Assembly: GCF_029760915.1 (NCBI RefSeq)
Contig: NZ_CP121685.1
Span: 186,001-250,000 of the forward strand
Source: Olleya sp. YS
GTDB taxonomy: Bacteria > Bacteroidota > Bacteroidia > Flavobacteriales > Flavobacteriaceae
DNA length: 64,000 bases
Reading direction: 5' to 3'
The notes under the pieces were generated by a model that saw only the letters and a list, made by a program, of their open reading frames with translations, was not told the DNA's origin and did not search any database. Made by a program: the position numbers and the translations under genes. Shown here piece after piece: positions 17,453-25,425 of this stretch. The stretch's first letter is position 1, and each line of letters opens with the position of its first letter.

Positions 17453-17980
17453 ATGGATTTAGACACTTTAGTATTACAATTTAAAAACAAAGACGAAAAA
17501 GCTTTCGAGAAACTTTATAATATGTATAAAGATAGTATGCATGGTGTTATCTACAACATTGTTAGAGATAATGACATAGCAGAAGAAGTCATGCAAGATG
17601 TGTTTATTAAAGCTTGGCATAAATCCGATAGTTATGACGTAACAAAAGGACGTTTTTTTACATGGTTAATTAACATATCCAGAAATGCAGCGATAGATAA
17701 AACCAGATCCAAGTCTTTTAAAAATTCAGGTAAAAACCTTAACTCCGATTATTTCGTAGATATTATACAATCACAAGACAGTTTAGATGATTCAACAGAT
17801 GCAATAGGCATCAAAAAGTTTGTTAATAAACTGGCTAAAAAATGTATAGAAGTTATTGAGCTATTATACTTTAAAGGTTTCACACAAAAAGAAGCTTCAG
17901 AAGAGTTAGATATGCCAATAGGGACTATAAAAACACGAAACAGAAATTGTATTAAAGAATTAAGAGAAGCCGTATTATAA
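17453..17980 (+). CDS. ECF-type RNA polymerase sigma factor
   Basis: Region 2 is visible at about residues 10-80 (DNDIAEEVMQDVFIKAWHKS, FFTWLINISRNAAID) and region 4 at about 120-170 (FKGFTQKEASEELDMPIGTIKTR, a helix-turn-helix). At 175 residues it has the normal ECF length with no extension. Its gene ends one base before an RskA-like anti-sigma gene, the usual SigK/RskA arrangement, so its activity should be held back by that protein until a signal arrives. The target promoters are unknown; the divergent or nearby sodC and DUF4331 genes are candidates by position only. Confidence 0.95.
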   Translation: MDLDTLVLQFKNKDEKAFEKLYNMYKDSMHGVIYNIVRDNDIAEEVMQDVFIKAWHKSDSYDVTKGRFFTWLINISRNAAIDKTRSKSFKNSGKNLNSDYFVDIIQSQDSLDDSTDAIGIKKFVNKLAKKCIEVIELLYFKGFTQKEASEELDMPIGTIKTRNRNCIKELREAVL

Positions 17981-17981
17981 T

Positions 17982-18782
17982 ATGAACATTAACGATTACA
18001 TAAACTCAGGAATACTAGAACTTTACGTTGCTGGCAAGCTGTCTGAAAAAGAGAGCCAAGAGGTGTATGACTTGATGTTAAAACACCCAGAAGTATTAAA
18101 GGAAGTTCTAGAAATTGAAGCTGCATTGGTTAAATTAACTGCTAGTGTTGCTCCTAAAAAAGATATAAAATTTAGTACCATAAAAGGAAGATTAAACACT
18201 AATGATACAGATGGTAAAATTATTAGTTTAAACAGACCAAAAACTAAATGGTTTAGTTATACTGGTTGGGCTGCAGCTGTAGTTTTAGCTGGAGGTTTAC
18301 TCTGGACTATTAATCAAAAATCTGCATTAGAAGACCAAATACAAACAGTTAATACCGAAAAGGATTTTATAGAAATCCAAATGGAAACGTCTAAAACTGA
18401 TTTAGCTGAGACCAAAAATTTATTAAATATAATTAGAGATAAAAGTATTATAAATATTCCTTTAGAAGGTCAAGCAGCAGCTCCTGGAGCTTATGCTACA
18501 GTCTATTGGGATAAAAATGATGATACAGTCTATTTAGACTTACAAGGATTACCAGAACCACCAGAAGGTAAAGTGTACCAAGTCTGGTCTTTAATGCTAA
18601 ATCCACTTACACCTACTAGCTTAGGAACTATAGACGAATTTATACAAGACGACAACAAGATTTTTAAGTTAGAAAACACTAACGAGTCTCAAGCATTTGG
18701 TATTACTTTAGAACCAGCTGGAGGAAGTGTTTCACCAACATTAGAGCAATTATATACTTTAGGTGCTTTAGCGTCCAACTAA
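17982..18782 (+). CDS. RskA-like anti-sigma factor
   Basis: The cytoplasmic N-terminal part (about 1-85) contains a zinc-less anti-sigma segment (ILELYVAGKLSEKESQEVYDLM). One membrane span follows at about 88-106 (GWAAAVVLAGGLLWTI), then a short coiled coil and the C-terminal anti-sigma-K domain with VYWDKNDDTVYLDLQGLP and GKVYQVWSL. It should sit in the inner membrane with its C-domain in the periplasm and sequester the sigma factor encoded one base upstream. A terminator follows directly. Confidence 0.93.
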   Translation: MNINDYINSGILELYVAGKLSEKESQEVYDLMLKHPEVLKEVLEIEAALVKLTASVAPKKDIKFSTIKGRLNTNDTDGKIISLNRPKTKWFSYTGWAAAVVLAGGLLWTINQKSALEDQIQTVNTEKDFIEIQMETSKTDLAETKNLLNIIRDKSIINIPLEGQAAAPGAYATVYWDKNDDTVYLDLQGLPEPPEGKVYQVWSLMLNPLTPTSLGTIDEFIQDDNKIFKLENTNESQAFGITLEPAGGSVSPTLEQLYTLGALASN

Positions 18783-19039: not shown

Positions 19040-19071
19040 GAAAGTGCTTGGAGTTAGATCCAAGCACTTTC
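19040..19071 (-). terminator. Strong hairpin downstream of the minus-strand TonB receptor gene
   Basis: GAAAGTGCTTGG and CCAAGCACTTTC form a perfect 12-bp stem with an 8-nt loop. On the minus strand it is followed by a TTGTTTTATAT stretch, so it probably ends the TonB/DUF4331 operon, about 140 bases past the stop. Confidence 0.65.
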
Positions 19072-19212: not shown

Positions 19213-21441
19213 TTAAAACGAATAACTTAAAGTCGTTTTAAAATTAAATGGTGTACCAGGAGTAAAATGAATTTCTTCAACTGGTTGAGCCTCATTCTGT
19301 AATCTAGACTCGGTTAAAAACTGAGTTTCTTTCCAATCTGTATCCAGTACATTTTCAATAACAACACCTAGTTTCCAGTGTGTATTAAAACTGTAATTGA
19401 TATTTAAATCGGTAACAAAATAGCCTTCAGCTATTACACTGTTATCTTCATTTGCTGGTCTATTATCTACATATCTGTAGTTAATTCCTCCAGAAAAATT
19501 ATTTATATCTTTAAAAGCTATTCCTCCAACCAGAGTAAAATCTGGTGCTAAGGGTATATAATCATTTCCATCTTCCTCTTCTAAACTTCTAGCTCTAGTA
19601 AACGTTGCATCTGTATTAAAATAGATGTTGTCTGTAAGTTGATATCTAACTCCAAAATCAATTCCGTAACGCTCAGATTTTCCGCTAGGTTCAATAATAC
19701 CTGCATCACCAACGTATACAAATTCTTCCTCTGAAAACAGATACCATAAAGCAGTATTTAGCACTAACTTATTAGTTGGCTTCCAAATATTTCCTAGGTC
19801 AACTCCATACGCTTTTGGTAGGGCATTATCTATATTTTGATTTAGCACTACTCTAGAGTCATTGGAATGAAATCCAATACCAGATTTGATAAACCATTGT
19901 AAGTTTTCATTTTGATTATATTGGATGGATAGTTTTGGTAGCAAAGCCACTTCACTATCCGTTAAGTTACTATAGGTTTCGCTTAACAGATCTTGATATT
20001 GAAATTTAATGTACTCTAAACGTAACGCTGGAGTAATTTTTACTTTACCTAAATCTATTTCAGCATTAAAAAAACCATATAAGTTACGTTGATTAACATT
20101 ACCTAATTGAATATTTTCTAAGGTAGTTTCTCTATTTAATGTGTGTGATAATTCTATGTCATTAACGTCGTCATAACGAAATCCTAAACCTGAAGTATAA
20201 GTCACATCAAAATTAGTATAGTATTTGTCTTTTTTGAATTGTGTATTAAATCCGAAAATATCTCTATCTTCTTTTTGTCTAATTTGATCTCCATTAACTG
20301 GATCTTCCAGAAAAAAGGTGAAATTAGAATACAATTCAAAGTCATAATTGGAATAAAATGCATTAGACTGCATTGCAATATCATTATCTAAAATAGTACT
20401 GAATTGTACATTAAAATTTGTACGACTTGTGTAACCGCCTTCGGTATCGTCTACTGCTCCAAAATTTGAAATAGTTCCGTTATCTACCAAACGTTGTGGA
20501 ATTTGTCCTGAAGCGTCCCATTGACTGGTAAAATGGCTTAAGGTTAAACCAATTTTAGAATCGTTATTTAAAAAAGCATTATACTTTCCAAACACGTTTA
20601 ATCTATCAAAATTTTGAGGCGACTCAAAAGGTCCATCGGTTTCGATATACTCTACTGCAACATAGGCGTTTTGAGAATTTTTATTTTCTATAAGATTAAA
20701 TAAACCTAATGTTCTAAGCGAGTTAAACTGTCCTGCAGAAAAACTAATTAAGTTGTTTTGCAATTTATCTTTAGTTTTAAAATCTACGAAACCTGCTGTT
20801 GTAAAATCACCATGATTTGCATAATAAGGCCCTTTTCCAAAACCAATAGTATTAATAGTTTCTGGGATTAAAAAATGTAAATCGCTATAACCTTGTCCGT
20901 GTGCGTGAGACACCATATTTACAGGCATACCATCTACAGACAAACTTACATCTGTCCCATGATCTACGTCAAAACCTCTTAAAAATAGCTGTTCAGCTTT
21001 ACCACCTCCAGCATGCTGACCAATGATTAACCCAGGAACTTTCCTTAATATTTCTTGTGAAGAATTTATTGGACTAGTTTCTAAATCTATTTTAACAATA
21101 CTGTTTAAAACATCTATTGGTTCTGTTAATACTAACTCGTCTAAAACAAATGCTTTAGAGTCTATATTAATAATTAAAGTATTTTGTAAAAGAGCTTCTG
21201 TTAAAACCAATGTTGTTTTTTGGTAGCCTAATAATCCAACGGTTAAGCTATCTCCTAAATTGGTATTATTTATAATAAATTGTCCTAATTGATTAGTATG
21301 TGCGTGTTCTTTTGAGTTCTCGTTGTACACGTATGCTGTTTCTAAAGGTTGGTTATTGTCCATAACATAACCTTTTACAGATTGTGCATGAGTCGTCACA
21401 ACAAGACACACCAATCCTATTAAAGTGATTATCTTTTTCAT
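19213..21441 (-). CDS. TonB-dependent receptor, last gene of the DUF4331 operon
   Basis: The signal peptide (about 1-19) is followed by a carboxypeptidase-like domain (SVKGYVMDNNQPLETAYV), a plug domain (about 115-235, with EILRKVPGLIIGQHAGGGKAE and LFLRGFDVDHGTD), and a beta barrel ending FKTTLSYSF with the terminal Phe usual for outer-membrane proteins. The plug and N-domain are rich in His (HAHTN, HAHGQGYSDLHF), which might reflect metal handling, but the substrate is unknown. It starts 10 bases after the TPR lipoprotein stop and is the last gene before a strong hairpin. Confidence 0.92.
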   Translation of the reverse strand: MKKIITLIGLVCLVVTTHAQSVKGYVMDNNQPLETAYVYNENSKEHAHTNQLGQFIINNTNLGDSLTVGLLGYQKTTLVLTEALLQNTLIINIDSKAFVLDELVLTEPIDVLNSIVKIDLETSPINSSQEILRKVPGLIIGQHAGGGKAEQLFLRGFDVDHGTDVSLSVDGMPVNMVSHAHGQGYSDLHFLIPETINTIGFGKGPYYANHGDFTTAGFVDFKTKDKLQNNLISFSAGQFNSLRTLGLFNLIENKNSQNAYVAVEYIETDGPFESPQNFDRLNVFGKYNAFLNNDSKIGLTLSHFTSQWDASGQIPQRLVDNGTISNFGAVDDTEGGYTSRTNFNVQFSTILDNDIAMQSNAFYSNYDFELYSNFTFFLEDPVNGDQIRQKEDRDIFGFNTQFKKDKYYTNFDVTYTSGLGFRYDDVNDIELSHTLNRETTLENIQLGNVNQRNLYGFFNAEIDLGKVKITPALRLEYIKFQYQDLLSETYSNLTDSEVALLPKLSIQYNQNENLQWFIKSGIGFHSNDSRVVLNQNIDNALPKAYGVDLGNIWKPTNKLVLNTALWYLFSEEEFVYVGDAGIIEPSGKSERYGIDFGVRYQLTDNIYFNTDATFTRARSLEEEDGNDYIPLAPDFTLVGGIAFKDINNFSGGINYRYVDNRPANEDNSVIAEGYFVTDLNINYSFNTHWKLGVVIENVLDTDWKETQFLTESRLQNEAQPVEEIHFTPGTPFNFKTTLSYSF

Positions 21442-21451
21442 AATGGTTGGT

Positions 21452-22735
21452 TTATAGTTGGTTAACGACTTTTGCTGTTAATGGTCCAAGCTCGTAGCTA
21501 GCGTCTTGCAATTCTTTTTTAAGTTCTGCTACCTCTTTAAGTTTGCCATTAGCTTTATAGATTTCTGCGATGTGGTATTGTGCTTCTGGTTCAAAAGTTT
21601 TTCCAACTACGTGGTTTTCAATGATGTTTAAAGCCTCTTTGACATTACCATTATTGTAGTAACTCCAAGCTAATAAGTCGTAAGACATTGGTGTTGGTCT
21701 ATTCTCTACTTCTATTTGTGCTAATTCTAAAGCTTTTTCGCTATTAGTTTCTGCTAAAATTTTAGAGGAATACACATTATACATGTCTCCATAATTTGGA
21801 TTATCTATTGCTTTAAAATAAGCATTTAAATAGTCGTTTTTTGACGACTCATCATTTTCATATTCCGCAATTTCTGCTTTAAACAATAAGTAATCTGGTG
21901 CATTGTGTAATTGTGTTAACGCTTCTAAAATTCGGTTAGCTTCTGCAGTATTTTTCTCGTAAGAATATACAATCCAAGCAATTCCTTTTTTAGCGTAAGC
22001 ATCATCAGGGTTTAAAGCTAATGCTTTTAAATAGTGATTGTATGAGTTTTCTATTTGTCCATCATGACCATAAAAATCTGCTAGATTAGTATAGGACCAC
22101 TCTATTAAACCTTCTAGTTTAGAAGACTCAGCAATTACAGTTGCTTTTTCTAAATATTTTATTGCAGATGCTAAGTCACCTTTATGATCGCTCCATTTAG
22201 ACAATCTTATTAAGTATCCAAAATCGCTAAAATCCTTAACTGTTTCAAGATAGTTTTTGGCTAATTGGTAGTTACCTAATTCCATGTGAACATCAAATAA
22301 CATTTTTTGAGTGCCTTTAAGGTTTTCGCCATTATCTTCAGCCTTTTTAAGCATGTCTAAAGCTTGCTTAAATTTATGTTGTGAAATATAATTTCTAGCT
22401 AAAGCACGTAAGCTACCAGCAGAATTATATTGAGTGTCTTCATTTAGTTGTATTAATGTTTTTTCGGCATTAATTAAGTTTTCAATTTGTCCTGTAGATT
22501 TAAATAATCTAGATTCTGCATCAGCAATTTTTGATAAATATGGAAACTGATTAGGAGTGGCTTCCAATTTATTTGTCCAAAAATTATAGTCTTTTAATGC
22601 ATTTTCGGTTTCGGTATTTGATTGTAGAGTTAAATACTGGTTGTAATCTTCAGGGTTAGTAATGGTTTTATTGTTTTCTGAACAACTACTTGCCATTAGT
22701 ATAACAAATAGTAGCATGTATAGTTTAGTGTTCAT
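21452..22735 (-). CDS. TPR-repeat lipoprotein
   Basis: The 427-residue product from the ATG at 22735 has a lipoprotein signal ending MASSC. The rest is helical with several tetratricopeptide units, for example NSYNHYLKALALNPDDAYAKKGIAW and YDLLAWSYYNNGNVKEALNIIE. It probably serves as a periplasmic scaffold for its operon partners, the DUF4331 proteins and the TonB receptor. A longer frame from 22783 would place a (GTTT)4 repeat inside the coding region and put a basic tail before the signal peptide, so the shorter start is preferred. The gap to the receptor gene is 10 bases. Confidence 0.88.
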   Translation of the reverse strand: MNTKLYMLLFVILMASSCSENNKTITNPEDYNQYLTLQSNTETENALKDYNFWTNKLEATPNQFPYLSKIADAESRLFKSTGQIENLINAEKTLIQLNEDTQYNSAGSLRALARNYISQHKFKQALDMLKKAEDNGENLKGTQKMLFDVHMELGNYQLAKNYLETVKDFSDFGYLIRLSKWSDHKGDLASAIKYLEKATVIAESSKLEGLIEWSYTNLADFYGHDGQIENSYNHYLKALALNPDDAYAKKGIAWIVYSYEKNTAEANRILEALTQLHNAPDYLLFKAEIAEYENDESSKNDYLNAYFKAIDNPNYGDMYNVYSSKILAETNSEKALELAQIEVENRPTPMSYDLLAWSYYNNGNVKEALNIIENHVVGKTFEPEAQYHIAEIYKANGKLKEVAELKKELQDASYELGPLTAKVVNQL

Positions 22736-22748
22736 AATTTTGGTTTTT

Positions 22749-22764
22749 GTTTGTTTGTTTGTTT
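22749..22764. repeat. (GTTT)4 tetranucleotide repeat before the TPR gene start
   Basis: Four GTTT units (AAAC on the coding strand), within a wider 22744-22767 T/G tract, lie 14-29 bases upstream of the ATG at 22735, next to the ribosome-binding region. Copy-number change could alter translation, but no variation can be seen from one sequence. Confidence 0.8.
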
Positions 22765-22791
22765 TTGTAGGGTAAAAATTCATGATAGATT

Positions 22792-22824
22792 AACACTATG
22801 TAATTTTAAAAATTACATAGTGTT
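22792..22824 (-). promoter_or_regulatory. Perfect 16-bp intercistronic hairpin between DUF4331 and TPR genes
   Basis: AACACTATGTAATTTT (22792-22807) and AAAATTACATAGTGTT (22809-22824) pair perfectly with a single base between them. On the operon's strand no U run follows, so it resembles an mRNA-stabilising or attenuating hairpin more than a full terminator. It lies 15 bases past the DUF4331 stop and could set a higher level for the DUF4331 genes than for the TPR/TonB genes. Confidence 0.65.
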
Positions 22825-22839
22825 TTTAAGGGATTCATT

Positions 22840-23397
22840 CTACCAAGGAGATGCTAAATATGGGAAAGACGTTGAAAACGGTTTATCATTGGCATCCACA
22901 TTATCGTTAGATAAGGTTGGGTTTTCAGAGAAATCTTCTCCTCCAAAAATCAATAATAATTCTACTGTAATCACATCATCCGCTAAAGCACGACCTGTTA
23001 AAACGTTAGTTCCATCGTAAAATGTTGTTGTTCCATCAAGAGATACATTTAATACGTCTGTAGCTAATAAACCAGTAAAGGTTGGAGCATCTAAACCTAA
23101 TGCGTTTTGGTCTCCTGGATTTGCATAAGCTGGACTTAACCCTGTTAAGTTAGCTTCAAACATAGCTTGGAAAGCCGCATTTTGGTTACTAGGTATTGTT
23201 GTGTTAAACATGTCTTTAGATCCTGTAGACACAAATACTGTATTAACAGCTGGTCTACCCATTTGATCTTGTTGTGTGTAAGTTCCTGTAAAGTCAGGAC
23301 CTGTAGGACTGTTTGGTCCTGCATCGTCATCGTTAGAGCAATTAAATGCTACTAAGGTTACTAAAAGGACGGTAATTATATTTTTTAAATTTTTCAT
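22840..23397 (-). CDS. DUF4331 C-terminal-half lipoprotein
   Basis: A lipoprotein signal ends LVAFNC with acidic residues after Cys (SNDDD). The 185-residue product matches the C-terminal half of DUF4331 proteins: QMGRPAVNTVFV, GRALADDVITVELLLIFGG, and the end NDKPFSTSFPYLASPW. The N-terminal half is encoded by the upstream gene 28 bases away, with its own signal peptide. It is therefore one half of a normally single-chain family split into two exported proteins. The function of DUF4331 is unknown. An intercistronic hairpin follows the stop. Confidence 0.85.
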   Translation of the reverse strand: MKNLKNIITVLLVTLVAFNCSNDDDAGPNSPTGPDFTGTYTQQDQMGRPAVNTVFVSTGSKDMFNTTIPSNQNAAFQAMFEANLTGLSPAYANPGDQNALGLDAPTFTGLLATDVLNVSLDGTTTFYDGTNVLTGRALADDVITVELLLIFGGEDFSENPTLSNDNVDANDKPFSTSFPYLASPW

Positions 23398-23425
23398 GAT
23401 ATTAAAATGTTTTTATGGTTAGTGT

Positions 23426-24076
23426 TTATGACTTTGATTTAGATTCTACCCAAGTATTAATAGTACCTGAACCACCAATCATAGATTTTGGTACTTCAAT
23501 AACAACAGACATAACGTTTGTACCTGCAAATGTGTCTGAACCTGGATTGTTAAATCCTGAAGCTGTTCCGCCTACAATTGCACTGTATTGTGCAAAATCC
23601 ATAAAAAATGGATCGTCTCTTGGTCCTGCAAAAGCAGAAATACCAGCAGTAGTTTGTACCATTGGCGCTGATCCGTAAGTTGTAATATCTACAACTGTTT
23701 GAGGTCCTGACCCAATAACTGTGCTACTTAATCCTGTAGTACCTGGAGCAACTGGTCCAAAAAAGTACATTTTACCATCTCTTGGGATAGCTTGAATAAC
23801 TAAGTCTTCAACATTGTCACCTGTGTTATCAATGTTAAATTCAATCATGACATTTTCATCAAAACTTGCACTAGCAGTAGCAGTAGGACTTAAAAGTCCT
23901 TGTACGTTAGCAACAAATACTAAATTGTCTGTGTCTTCACCTTGAAAGGCATAAAAATCTGTGATATCACTTGTACCACCTTGTACAGCAGGAGCATCAA
24001 TGTGATCTGCTGATAAGAAGAAGAAACTTGCTGCTGCAAATACGCCTACTCCTAAAATAAATTTGAAATTTTTCAT
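23426..24076 (-). CDS. DUF4331 N-terminal-half secreted protein
   Basis: This is the first gene of the operon. A signal peptide or anchor of about 22 residues (GVGVFAAASFFFLSA) is followed by the family start motif DHIDAP and DITDFYAFQGED, then a beta-rich region ending VVIEVPKSMIGGSGTINTWVESKSKS. In full-length DUF4331 proteins the EVPKS segment lies mid-protein, and the C-terminal half is here encoded by the next gene. It has no Cys lipobox, so it is probably periplasmic or exported. The 155-base divergent region upstream, facing the LETM1-like gene, should hold its promoter. Confidence 0.87.
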   Translation of the reverse strand: MKNFKFILGVGVFAAASFFFLSADHIDAPAVQGGTSDITDFYAFQGEDTDNLVFVANVQGLLSPTATASASFDENVMIEFNIDNTGDNVEDLVIQAIPRDGKMYFFGPVAPGTTGLSSTVIGSGPQTVVDITTYGSAPMVQTTAGISAFAGPRDDPFFMDFAQYSAIVGGTASGFNNPGSDTFAGTNVMSVVIEVPKSMIGGSGTINTWVESKSKS

Positions 24077-24231
24077 AATGTTTTGAGATTTTTTGTTAAT
24101 TAATATTTTTGGTTCTCACAGACACTTACGCAACAATTGCAAATGCGGTTTTATTAAAATTTTGTTAAAGCGAAAAAAATGTGTGAAATAAGATTAAAAA
24201 AGTATCTTTATACTTTAATATAAATACCTGA

Positions 24232-25425
24232 ATGAACCCTTCTGCAACTGGTTGGATTAAAAAATTAATAAAAGAGTTAAATCCTGAAGAACTCTTTAAA
24301 GACAACGACTTAGAAGTCTATTATAGACATTTTAGAGACTGCGGATTTATTTATGGTAGCAATGTAAAAGTAGTTAACGATTGGATTGAAAATGAAGATT
24401 TTGAATCTGATGAAATTTGTAAAATAAATTTAGTTATTGCATTACATATTGCTTTTACCAACCATAATACTACAAATGATTTTTACACTGAAGTTGCTAA
24501 TTTTTACAATAAAATTAATAAAAAAAGAGTGTCTTTTCTAGAGGCACTAATGGGTTCAAAAAACAAAACAGATCAAGTAGAACGTATTATAAATAAGCGT
24601 ATTCAAATTGATGATAACTTAATAGACAAAAGTTTTAACTATTTTATTACTAACGCTTTACTGTTTGTAGATGTTTTGGCGTTTAGAAACTATTTAAAAA
24701 CAGGAGAGGTTGCTGAAGAAACAATACGAGAATATGAAGCAGTTATAGAGAGCATTGTGCTAAACACCTTAAATAGTAAGAAAAACAAGTCTGACTACGA
24801 CAAAAGTTTAATTGACTTATTTGAGCAATCTCTACGCTACCAACGTGATACTGTTTTAGTCTTTAGTGAAGCTATTAGTACAGTAAGCACTAATTTATTT
24901 GCACGTTATTGTTTGGATTTAGCAGCAATGGCGACATGGACAGATGCCAAATTAGACAACGAAGAAGAATTATTTTTAAATACGTTAGGCGAAAAACTTA
25001 ATTTATCACAGCATCAAATAGATGAAGCCTCTAAAACTATTGAAGAGTTTTATAAAACTTACAGAGAAAAAGTACCGCTATTAGGCTCTAAAAATATTGT
25101 AAAAACGTTTTATGATAATTCTAGCAATATGGTACTTAAGCTCATTAAGCGTAATAGCAAACGATTAACCAAAGAATTATCAGAGAGTAAAGAACTATTG
25201 GTCTTATTATCACATTCTACCGTTAGAGACTTAAGTAAAGACGAACAGAAAAAAGTACAAGACCAATTATTAGATATCTTTAAGTCTGTACCAAGCTTGG
25301 CAATTTTCCTGTTACCTGGAGGTGCCTTATTATTACCACTAGTGGTCAAGTTTATACCAAAACTACTACCAAGTGCTTTTGATGATAATAGAATTGAGGA
25401 CGACAAAGAACAGGATAAGTCATAG
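24232..25425 (+). CDS. LETM1-related, TerB-like cytoplasmic/membrane protein
   Basis: The 397-residue product has no signal peptide. A helical N-terminal domain is followed by a TerB-like segment at about 220-270 (CLDLAAMATWTDAKLDNEEELFLNTLGEKLNLS). The C-terminal LETM1-like hydrophobic segment reads LAIFLLPGGALLLPLVVKFIPKLLPSAF, and the tail is acidic. Flavobacterial homologues are called LETM1-related biofilm-associated proteins; in eukaryotes LETM1 concerns K+/H+ or Ca2+ exchange, but bacterial function is unproven. It is divergent from the DUF4331 operon and convergent with a LytTR gene that begins one base after its stop. Confidence 0.82.
   Translation: MNPSATGWIKKLIKELNPEELFKDNDLEVYYRHFRDCGFIYGSNVKVVNDWIENEDFESDEICKINLVIALHIAFTNHNTTNDFYTEVANFYNKINKKRVSFLEALMGSKNKTDQVERIINKRIQIDDNLIDKSFNYFITNALLFVDVLAFRNYLKTGEVAEETIREYEAVIESIVLNTLNSKKNKSDYDKSLIDLFEQSLRYQRDTVLVFSEAISTVSTNLFARYCLDLAAMATWTDAKLDNEEELFLNTLGEKLNLSQHQIDEASKTIEEFYKTYREKVPLLGSKNIVKTFYDNSSNMVLKLIKRNSKRLTKELSESKELLVLLSHSTVRDLSKDEQKKVQDQLLDIFKSVPSLAIFLLPGGALLLPLVVKFIPKLLPSAFDDNRIEDDKEQDKS

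Follow-up and report, generated by a model that had tools for sequence, protein, structure and literature searches.

Do two neighbouring genes of Olleya sp. YS, each matching a part of the DUF4331 domain (PF14224), encode the parts of a single protein, and what might such a protein do at the cell envelope together with the products of the genes around it? The locus lies in a stretch of 64,000 nucleotides (hereafter the window), and our literature search found no paper naming DUF4331. Both genes are intact and lie on the minus strand. The first (positions 23426-24076; 216 amino acids, referred to as chain N) scored 87.9 bits against the PF14224 profile and the second (22840-23397; a lipoprotein of 185 amino acids, chain C) 61.6 bits, both exceeding the curated 27-bit cut-off. 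Chain N matched in two stretches, placed at profile positions 2-76 and 139-242 by a profile search of the genome and with 139-233 as the best stretch in a single-protein search, and chain C matched positions 247-421. These matches do not overlap, and together the pair spans the domain with positions 77-138 left without a match. An earlier note on this DNA had assigned the two genes to the N- and C-terminal halves of DUF4331; alignment of each chain to the whole domain, which would speak against that assignment, was looked for in the profile search, and the matches proved complementary. No further DUF4331 gene was found in the 3.0 Mb genome by profile search.

The two-gene state is stable, as the same note had held. 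The pair was recovered in all 44 compact loci, 43 of them scored by script and L097 from the DNA itself, as well as in 79 of 80 named loci, a set sharing some genomes with the former; the remaining contig (L183) ends within chain N. In the window, no single chain spans the domain. In Olleya aquimaris, chain N is 96% identical to that of the window. Adjacent N and C genes share one reading frame in 23 of 81 pairs. A frameshift artefact was considered and ruled out, since 119 of the 120 distinct C chains have a lipobox-like Cys and 122 of the 123 N chains a hydrophobic stretch ahead of the conserved N-terminal motif. The only C chain without this Cys, that of L081, starts inside the domain in the ORF call used.

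When the two chains were modelled together with AlphaFold2, they were predicted to fold jointly with moderate confidence (pLDDT 72.9, pTM 0.77) from a shallow alignment of 52 rows, 18 of which covered both chains. Chain C folded alone, a prediction built on a different alignment, gave poorer values (pLDDT 56.5, pTM 0.55) and lost its first strand. Searches for solved relatives returned nothing convincing for chain N (the best hits, at E 0.082, being antibody chains), nothing up to E 0.1 for the single-chain profile, and no match of the joint model in the PDB at E<=0.001 using Foldseek. Because the halves are complementary, their pairing is nearly invariable and the joint model is better than that of chain C alone, the two genes probably encode two parts, N and C, of a single DUF4331 fold, into which the chains are predicted to assemble.

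How the split arose is a separate matter. DUF4331 was found in Bacteroidota, Pseudomonadota, Actinomycetota and Cyanobacteriota, and one scan of viral contigs with a set of single chains (A3) confirmed no relative. Of the 44 split pairs, 23 went into a combined tree, together with 31 of the 32 single-chain rows (17 of the 22 single-chain genomes found were fetched; Paracoccus was left out for want of the cut pattern). The split clade is monophyletic in this tree, whose root does not distinguish the gene fission suggested before from a later fusion. The opposite polarity, in which the two-gene state is ancestral and the single chain was made by fusion, would agree with the midpoint, which divides the split clade from all single-chain rows by long stems, and with the occurrence of a split pair in Croceicoccus, an alphaproteobacterium; yet four phyla have single chains, among them a compact one from Nostoc to which both split profiles align (108 and 54.6 bits); we regard ancestral splitting as rather unlikely. 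Whether the pair derives from a tandem duplicate, the first gene having shed its C part and the second its N part, is not settled by the combined tree.

The export signals of the two chains, judged by eye, bear out the earlier assertion that each has its own, one of them as a lipoprotein. Chain N begins with a Sec-type signal ending FLS|ADHIDAP, which would place the codons of a likely mature N-terminal Ala-Asp-His at 24002-24010 on the minus strand; cleavage might also fall one residue further on, giving Asp-His. The ATCUN motif, a free N-terminus followed by X-X-His, is a pattern that binds Cu(II) and Ni(II). Among 123 distinct split N sequences, 122 have a corresponding [AGS]DH; SSHREAP is found in all 20 single chains of set A3, and among six relatives without a signal a start reading M-[AS]-x-H is possible in all six loci and is the sole start in four. 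An [A/S]-x-His terminus is thus conserved both in exported members, following the likely signal cut, and in signal-less ones, right behind the start Met, where the ATCUN pattern depends on cleavage sites judged by eye and on an assumed removal of Met. In chain C, the lipobox-like Cys is followed by an acidic run (Cys-Ser-Asn-Asp-Asp-Asp, 23323-23340, minus strand) agreeing with the surface-lipoprotein export signal (LES), taken for comparison from the consensus in the part of PMC5080379 used here: a lipobox Cys, a polar residue and acidic residues at +2 to +6. At least two acidic residues at these positions were counted in 111 of 120 C chains, against 19 of 126 TPR proteins, and chain C is accordingly predicted from its sequence to serve as a lipid anchor that is probably flipped onto the cell surface. 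Pfam searches found no T9SS C-terminal sorting domain on the chains of the window; PF18962 was above cut-off in four of eight Bacteroidota single chains tested.

Downstream on the same strand lie genes for a TPR lipoprotein (21452-22735, with Pfam TPR matches; the better start is at 22735, moved from 22783) and a TonB-dependent receptor of 742 amino acids (19213-21441) composed of CarbopepD_reg_2, plug and barrel. Among 60 related genomes, the TPR protein was matched (E<=1e-40) in exactly the 19 that carry DUF4331, and the operon with this lipoprotein proposed previously is supported. The receptor gene comes immediately after that of the TPR protein in 19 of the 44 compact and 51 of the 80 named loci; it is missing from three of the 19 carriers, located elsewhere in six more, and present in six of the 41 genomes without DUF4331. 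The TPR lipoprotein is therefore the constant partner of DUF4331 and the receptor an optional one, and the supposed four-gene order, seen before as a complete surface uptake or assembly system, holds for the DUF4331 pair and the TPR gene but not fully for the receptor. The receptor plug carries SHAHGQGYSD (20881-20910, minus strand), a motif that all 81 distinct receptor ORFs longer than 660 amino acids in the loci share as SH[AGS]HGQGY[AS]D. Receptor orthologs away from DUF4331 follow a small His-rich protein in nine of 12 loci, by eye, and two such regions (L237 and L238) contain NRPS-type genes and a HupE with His first after its signal.

One could suppose that an organic cofactor or a metallophore chelate (PQQ, cobalamin, an NRPS product) is the cargo of the receptor and that DUF4331 serves this receptor as a surface capture lid, as BtuG does for BtuB. 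PqqU/YncD, FecA and CntO are among the eight solved chains that the receptor profile retrieves, although these matches are remote; receptor relatives adjoin the NRPS genes just mentioned, and a relative of 38% identity (L229) lies inside a cobalamin biosynthesis cluster. With the receptor optional and the DUF4331-TPR association constant, we consider this role quite improbable.

Other partners may point towards metals. Of 19 annotated DUF4331 regions outside Bacteroidota, 11 contain a permease of the nickel/cobalt families HupE/UreJ or NicO (seven of these 11 were checked with Pfam); none was seen in the stretches fetched for the other eight, three of which adjoin type II secretion genes and one of which (L217) has only 'hypothetical protein' names. 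By eye, His stands right after the signal in all seven locus permeases examined outside Bacteroidota and in five of six within. These recurrent permeases, and the sharing of one N-terminus by members lacking a signal, weigh against DUF4331 being a surface structural or adhesive protein with the TPR protein as its assembly factor and X-X-His serving processing or folding; such a role, for which the varied display routes (T9SS tail, LES-like lipoprotein, adjoining sortase gene or T2SS genes) and a C-type lectin domain on one member could be cited, appears unlikely. Among the 60 related genomes, HupE_UreJ_2 occurs in all 19 carriers but also in 28 of the 41 others, and the sole match in Olleya is about 1.27 Mb away, leaving the locus of the window without an anglerase-type permease. 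Urease is encoded in only one of the 19 carriers, which disfavours a simple role in nickel nutrition for this enzyme.

A control circuit not linked to DUF4331 in the earlier note co-occurs with it and is, beside the TPR protein, its other constant partner. On the plus strand, an ECF sigma factor gene (17453-17980; Sigma70_r2 and Sigma70_ECF above cut-off) is followed by one for an RskA-type anti-sigma factor (17982-18782; RskA_C, 71.3 bits). Of the 44 compact loci, 33 contain a sigma relative, and RskA matches at E<1e-40, a line set after seeing the data, separate 18 of the 19 carriers from all 41 other genomes (0/41); when all matches within the 1e-10 limit of the search are counted, 32 of the 60 genomes have one. 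Upstream of chain N, on the minus strand, an ECF-like promoter AACC-N16-CGTA (24127-24150; -35 at 24147-24150, -10 at 24127-24130) follows a pattern, set post hoc, found ahead of 100 of 118 distinct chain N sequences and 15 of 2219 other upstream regions, from which an extended consensus was derived. The pattern precedes none of 81 sigma genes, and a broad regulon was rejected, the genome containing 20 matches against 44 for a control. A sigma-70 promoter scan yielded sites no commoner than in shuffles. The gap separating the chain C gene from that of the TPR protein contains a hairpin with a 15-bp stem (22792-22824, minus strand); hairpins with z < -2 were found in 96 of 102 such gaps and in 64 of 200 control gaps. 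The terminator-like stem-loop past the receptor gene (19040-19071, minus strand) is weak, with three in the region where 1.7 are expected, and known RNA elements across the 64-kb window were limited to a tRNA at gathering thresholds.

The sigma/RskA link, NicO-family permeases, the lack of urease in 18 of the 19 carriers and a HupE/UreJ-domain gene as the most nickel-induced in Sphingobium (according to the portion of PMC5557971 consulted) would fit a metal stress module in which DUF4331 sequesters surplus Ni, Cu or Co at the envelope and HupE/NicO relatives export or store it. The gene next in the operon of most named loci encodes a TonB receptor, an import device, and we judge detoxification improbable.

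We favour instead, at a probability of roughly 0.4, a surface or periplasmic metal-capture protein. Signal peptidase would free Ala-Asp-His on chain N as a putative ATCUN-type Cu(II)/Ni(II) site, chain C would anchor the complex by its lipid, probably at the cell surface, and the assembled chains may capture Ni, Co or Cu in the envelope before passing the metal on, perhaps by way of the neighbouring TonB receptor in Olleya and, in other lineages, to a permease of the HupE/UreJ or NicO type. In the periplasm, the TPR lipoprotein would act as a scaffold or assist assembly, expression of the operon would be turned on by the ECF sigma/RskA pair, and the hairpin may keep the DUF4331 pair above the levels of the TPR and receptor genes. 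This reading draws on the X-X-His N-termini, the recurrent nickel/cobalt permeases with their His after the signal (as in anglerases) and the His-rich protein near receptor orthologs. Against it we counted the rarity of urease, HupE_UreJ_2 being common in non-carriers and unlinked in Olleya, the optional receptor, the regions without a permease, and co-fold residues 1-11 with pLDDT < 50; a surface location of chain C would also leave the route of chain N there unaccounted for. A wider proposal is more tentative: that DUF4331 proteins are cross-phylum N-terminal metal chelators, whose [A/S]-x-His is exposed by signal peptidase where the protein is exported and by loss of Met where it stays in the cytoplasm, and which feed HupE/UreJ, NicO or TonB partners, cut in Flavobacteriaceae and some other lineages into a soluble metal-bearing and a lipid-anchored chain that reassemble, with the anchored half circularly permuted in Croceicoccus. 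Conserved partners and an X-X-His terminus narrow the function of DUF4331 to a short list of testable options.

Beyond the earlier note, these results add the ECF sigma/RskA pair, the ECF-like promoter, the hairpin that separates the split pair from the TPR gene, and occurrence outside Bacteroidota, and they allow comparison with known systems. The reference type of ECF sigma/RskA circuits is SigK-RskA, with which the pair shares an RskA_C anti-sigma adjoining the ECF sigma gene; here, in contrast, the likely target is the DUF4331 operon, and the sigma gene lacks the promoter pattern. FecIR-type signalling relies on a FecR-type anti-sigma and on a receptor that bears a signalling (STN) domain at its N-terminus, unlike the domain composition of the receptor and anti-sigma described above. 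SusCD and BtuBG combine a TonB receptor with a surface lipoprotein, and a surface-type lipoprotein likewise adjoins a TonB receptor at this Bacteroidota locus, but DUF4331 and TPR are also found together without the receptor, and Pfam assigns these two families, and no SusD family, to the proteins of the window. The metal-binding 'anglerases' (HupE/UreJ-2 permeases, DUF4198 and DUF6702), as presented in the part of PMC12537917 on which we drew, likewise act in the envelope and have a chelating-type His where the mature protein begins, and several DUF4331 loci carry such permeases; however, the His of DUF4331 occupies position 3 (X-X-His) and not 1, on a separate protein that this source, judging by the literature search, does not name. 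Compared with single-chain DUF4331 members, which measure about 340 to 840 amino acids in this survey (one ORF reaching 1526), the chains of the window keep the conserved motifs and differ in being two exported proteins, one lipid-anchored, and a natural two-chain DUF4331, apparently once circularly permuted, would offer a good model for dividing a fold between differently anchored chains.

The minus-strand row from 24076 to 19213 comprises four genes, coding in turn for DUF4331 chain N (23426-24076, 216 aa), DUF4331 chain C (22840-23397, 185 aa), a TPR lipoprotein (427 aa counted from the better start at 22735) and a TonB-dependent receptor (742 aa). In profile searches, chain N matched positions 2-76 and 139-242 of PF14224 and chain C positions 247-421, without any overlap, so that the two genes code for complementary parts of DUF4331, as the earlier note had read them. 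No further DUF4331 gene was found by profile search in this genome (3.0 Mb, one contig), and the nearest named relative of chain N among the matches listed was Olleya aquimaris (96% identity). The divergent neighbour of chain N (24232-25425, plus strand) encodes a LETM1_RBD-matching protein, which recurs in many Flavobacteriaceae loci and is missing from others. Neither 'DUF4331' nor 'PF14224' was found in a literature search with most subscription papers outside its coverage.

DUF4331 was surveyed in 60 relatives (19 carriers, the window genome counted in) and in 395 Bacteroidota genomes (48 carriers), and fell into two classes, namely compact loci with two genes and single chains matching the profile over its full length or almost all of it (565-838 aa in the ORFs read, plus one of 1526 aa). 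All 44 compact loci, the window among them, were fetched, together with loci from 17 single-chain genomes out of the 22 in the Bacteroidota survey; a second set held the best 80 of 566 confirmed stretches from named organisms, mostly Flavobacteriaceae, some genomes being common to both sets. The split is well supported, and stable as had been claimed, with two genes in 44/44 compact loci (43 by script, one by reading the DNA directly) and in 79/80 named loci, the last being a contig that ends within chain N. Maximum-likelihood inference placed all 23 split rows in a single clade (100/100) with a long stem. This tree did not resolve the root, so that gene fission, proposed earlier as a fact, is likely as the direction of change, short of proof. 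Two points speak for fission: single-chain DUF4331 was met in Bacteroidota, Pseudomonadota, Actinomycetota and Cyanobacteriota, and a Nostoc plasmid encodes a compact single chain that matches both split profiles. The cut site corresponds to a stretch of variable length between the conserved single-chain segments ...IGVWASASRP and QVSRLGMPLVNE.

Among the named loci, 23 of 81 adjacent pairs have the genes for chains N and C in one frame, and the DNA of such pairs could therefore be modelled as a single chain in which the intergenic gap and the second signal serve as linker. From a shallow alignment (18 same-frame loci, 17 N-only and 17 C-only rows), the AlphaFold2 co-fold reached a mean pLDDT of 72.9 and a pTM of 0.77, with no inter-chain error map; strands predominated in the N part and helices in the C part, and residues 244-250, a block with the strand opening chain C, averaged 90. 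Chain C alone, modelled from a different alignment, reached 56.5 and 0.55 and lost its opening strand. These models support mutual folding of the two chains, and a single fold for the pair is what they predict. No similar solved structure was found for the DUF4331 chains at the sensitivity used.

Both halves carry export signals, one as a lipoprotein: the chain N signal is Sec-type, a lipobox-like Cys being flagged in just 2/122 N chains, and such a Cys is present in 119/120 distinct chain C sequences. At least two acidic residues occupy positions +2 to +6 in 111/120 C chains versus 19/126 TPR proteins of the same loci. Because this acidic run fits the Bacteroidetes lipoprotein export signals SDDDD and SDDFE given in the available text of PMC5080379, chain C is, judging from its sequence, probably located on the cell surface. 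Single-chain members give signs of other routes, with a T9SS tail above the cut-off in 4/8 Bacteroidota proteins tested, type II secretion genes adjoining three Rhodobacterales genes and a class F sortase gene close to streptomycete ones. Full-length DUF4331 genes stand in tandem in four loci (L105, L106, L108 and L111); no T9SS tail match was obtained on the first copies of L105 and L106 or on the second copy of L106. One further chain (L110, 9188-11701) carries a C-type lectin domain ahead of its T9SS tail.

The TPR partnership of DUF4331 is well supported, the TPR gene lying directly 3' of the split pair in 41/44 compact and 76/80 named loci and a match at E<=1e-40 occurring in exactly the 19 DUF4331 genomes among the 60 relatives. 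A receptor match (E<=1e-80) was found in 16/19 of these carriers and in 6/41 other genomes, and in 6 of the 16 it lies elsewhere, away from DUF4331; the receptor is thus an optional partner, and of the four-gene neighbourhood described in the earlier note, the TPR part holds and the receptor part is not fully supported. Of the 17 single-chain Bacteroidota loci, 13 have a TPR match, 7 the receptor, 5 HupE and 3 RskA. A hairpin occupies the space that separates chain C from the TPR gene, with z below -2 in 96/102 gaps against 64/200 control gaps drawn from 359, which might act as a step-down or protection element.

An ECF-type sigma gene by Pfam (17453-17980) and an RskA-type anti-sigma gene (17982-18782) neighbour the row on the plus strand. 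An RskA match at E<1e-40 occurs in 18/19 DUF4331 genomes versus 0/41 others, in one carrier (G033) about 67 kb from DUF4331, and the choice of E-value line matters, since 32/60 genomes match at 1e-10. The ECF link of DUF4331 is well supported. The promoter-like pattern AACC-N16-CGTA (extended form TTTAACAAAACCG-N15-CGTAGGTAT) lies 5' of chain N in 100/118 distinct sequences (97 with spacing 16), as against 15/2219 of the remaining upstream regions in these loci and 42/5900 shuffles; it was defined after viewing the sequences, which are related, yet the motif persists between flanks that vary. It is absent from 81/81 sigma-gene upstreams. Split pairs are duplicated in tandem (N-C-N-C) in L070, L076 and L149, and their second N copy is without the pattern, as expected within one operon. 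The neighbouring ECF sigma factor would read the chain N promoter; a broad regulon is unlikely, because the core pattern is no commoner genome-wide than its control (20 versus 44).

The receptor plug carries SH[AGS]HGQGY[AS]D in 81/81 distinct ORFs over 660 aa. Away from DUF4331, a small His-rich protein precedes the receptor in 9/12 loci by eye, and condensation/adenylation enzymes adjoin it in L218 and L222 (Pfam-checked) and a few more by eye. Eight solved chains matched the receptor profile at E<=1e-10, among them PqqU/YncD, FecA and CntO, all remote; the findings on this protein and its relatives would suit a metal or metal-chelate receptor. Two wider Flavobacteriaceae regions (L237, L238) contain a candidate metallophore cluster, small and NRPS-type (condensation, adenylation, carrier, phosphopantetheinyl transferase), in which an ortholog of the window receptor stands with a His-rich membrane protein and a HupE permease whose signal is followed by His. 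A 38% receptor relative (L229, 5509-7758) lies inside a cobalamin biosynthesis cluster (by Pfam, CbiA/GATase_3, CbiB, CbiC and tetrapyrrole methylases).

Among 26 plasmid regions picked from DUF4331 matches, 19 non-Bacteroidota ones come with a gene table, and in 11 of these DUF4331 has a HupE/UreJ or NicO permease close by (7 Pfam-checked): Pseudoalteromonas, Marinobacter, Comamonadaceae, Lichenicola, three Streptomycetaceae, Rhizobium bangladeshense, Croceicoccus, Nostoc and R. leguminosarum. No such permease was found within the stretch fetched in the other 8, one of which lacks informative gene names. In Pseudoalteromonas and Croceicoccus, the neighbours of DUF4331 include a sigma gene and one for an RskA_C protein. 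A split pair also occurs on a Croceicoccus marinus plasmid, in a row with TPR, HupE, sigma and RskA genes; its C half (L232, 5570-6316) is circularly permuted, domain end first (profile 93-144 at residues 104-157, then 1-57 at 177-234), and the identical protein is found in a second strain.

SSHREAP opens the domain in 20/20 aligned single chains, immediately preceded by a small residue compatible with signal peptidase (A in 16, S in 4), and [AGS]DH opens 122/123 distinct split N chains after A (109) or S (13), with the cleavage site placed by eye; if the cut fell one residue further on, X-His would remain. In six loci DUF4331 seemingly has no signal peptide and could start M-S-H-H, M-S-D-H or M-A-D-H, the only start available in four of them, two of which (L236, L262) look alike; in L260 the annotated start lies 18 residues upstream of such a start. 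Signal cleavage in exported members and Met removal in signal-less ones would thus yield the same [A/S]-x-His end by two routes. ATCUN motifs have the form X-X-His. They constitute amino-terminal Cu(II)/Ni(II) sites, according to the available text of PMC7701195. Because the permeases, the X-X-His end and the His-first partners agree in what they suggest, metal capture is tentatively the best single explanation of the DUF4331 system, at a probability of roughly 0.4. Stress defence is a real rival, and the occurrence of urease in only 1/19 carriers speaks against plain nickel nutrition as the role. In the HupE/NicO proteins looked at by eye, a His follows the signal in 7/7 non-Bacteroidota and 5/6 Bacteroidota cases, a feature in which they resemble the anglerases, which bind metal as described in the available text of PMC12537917.
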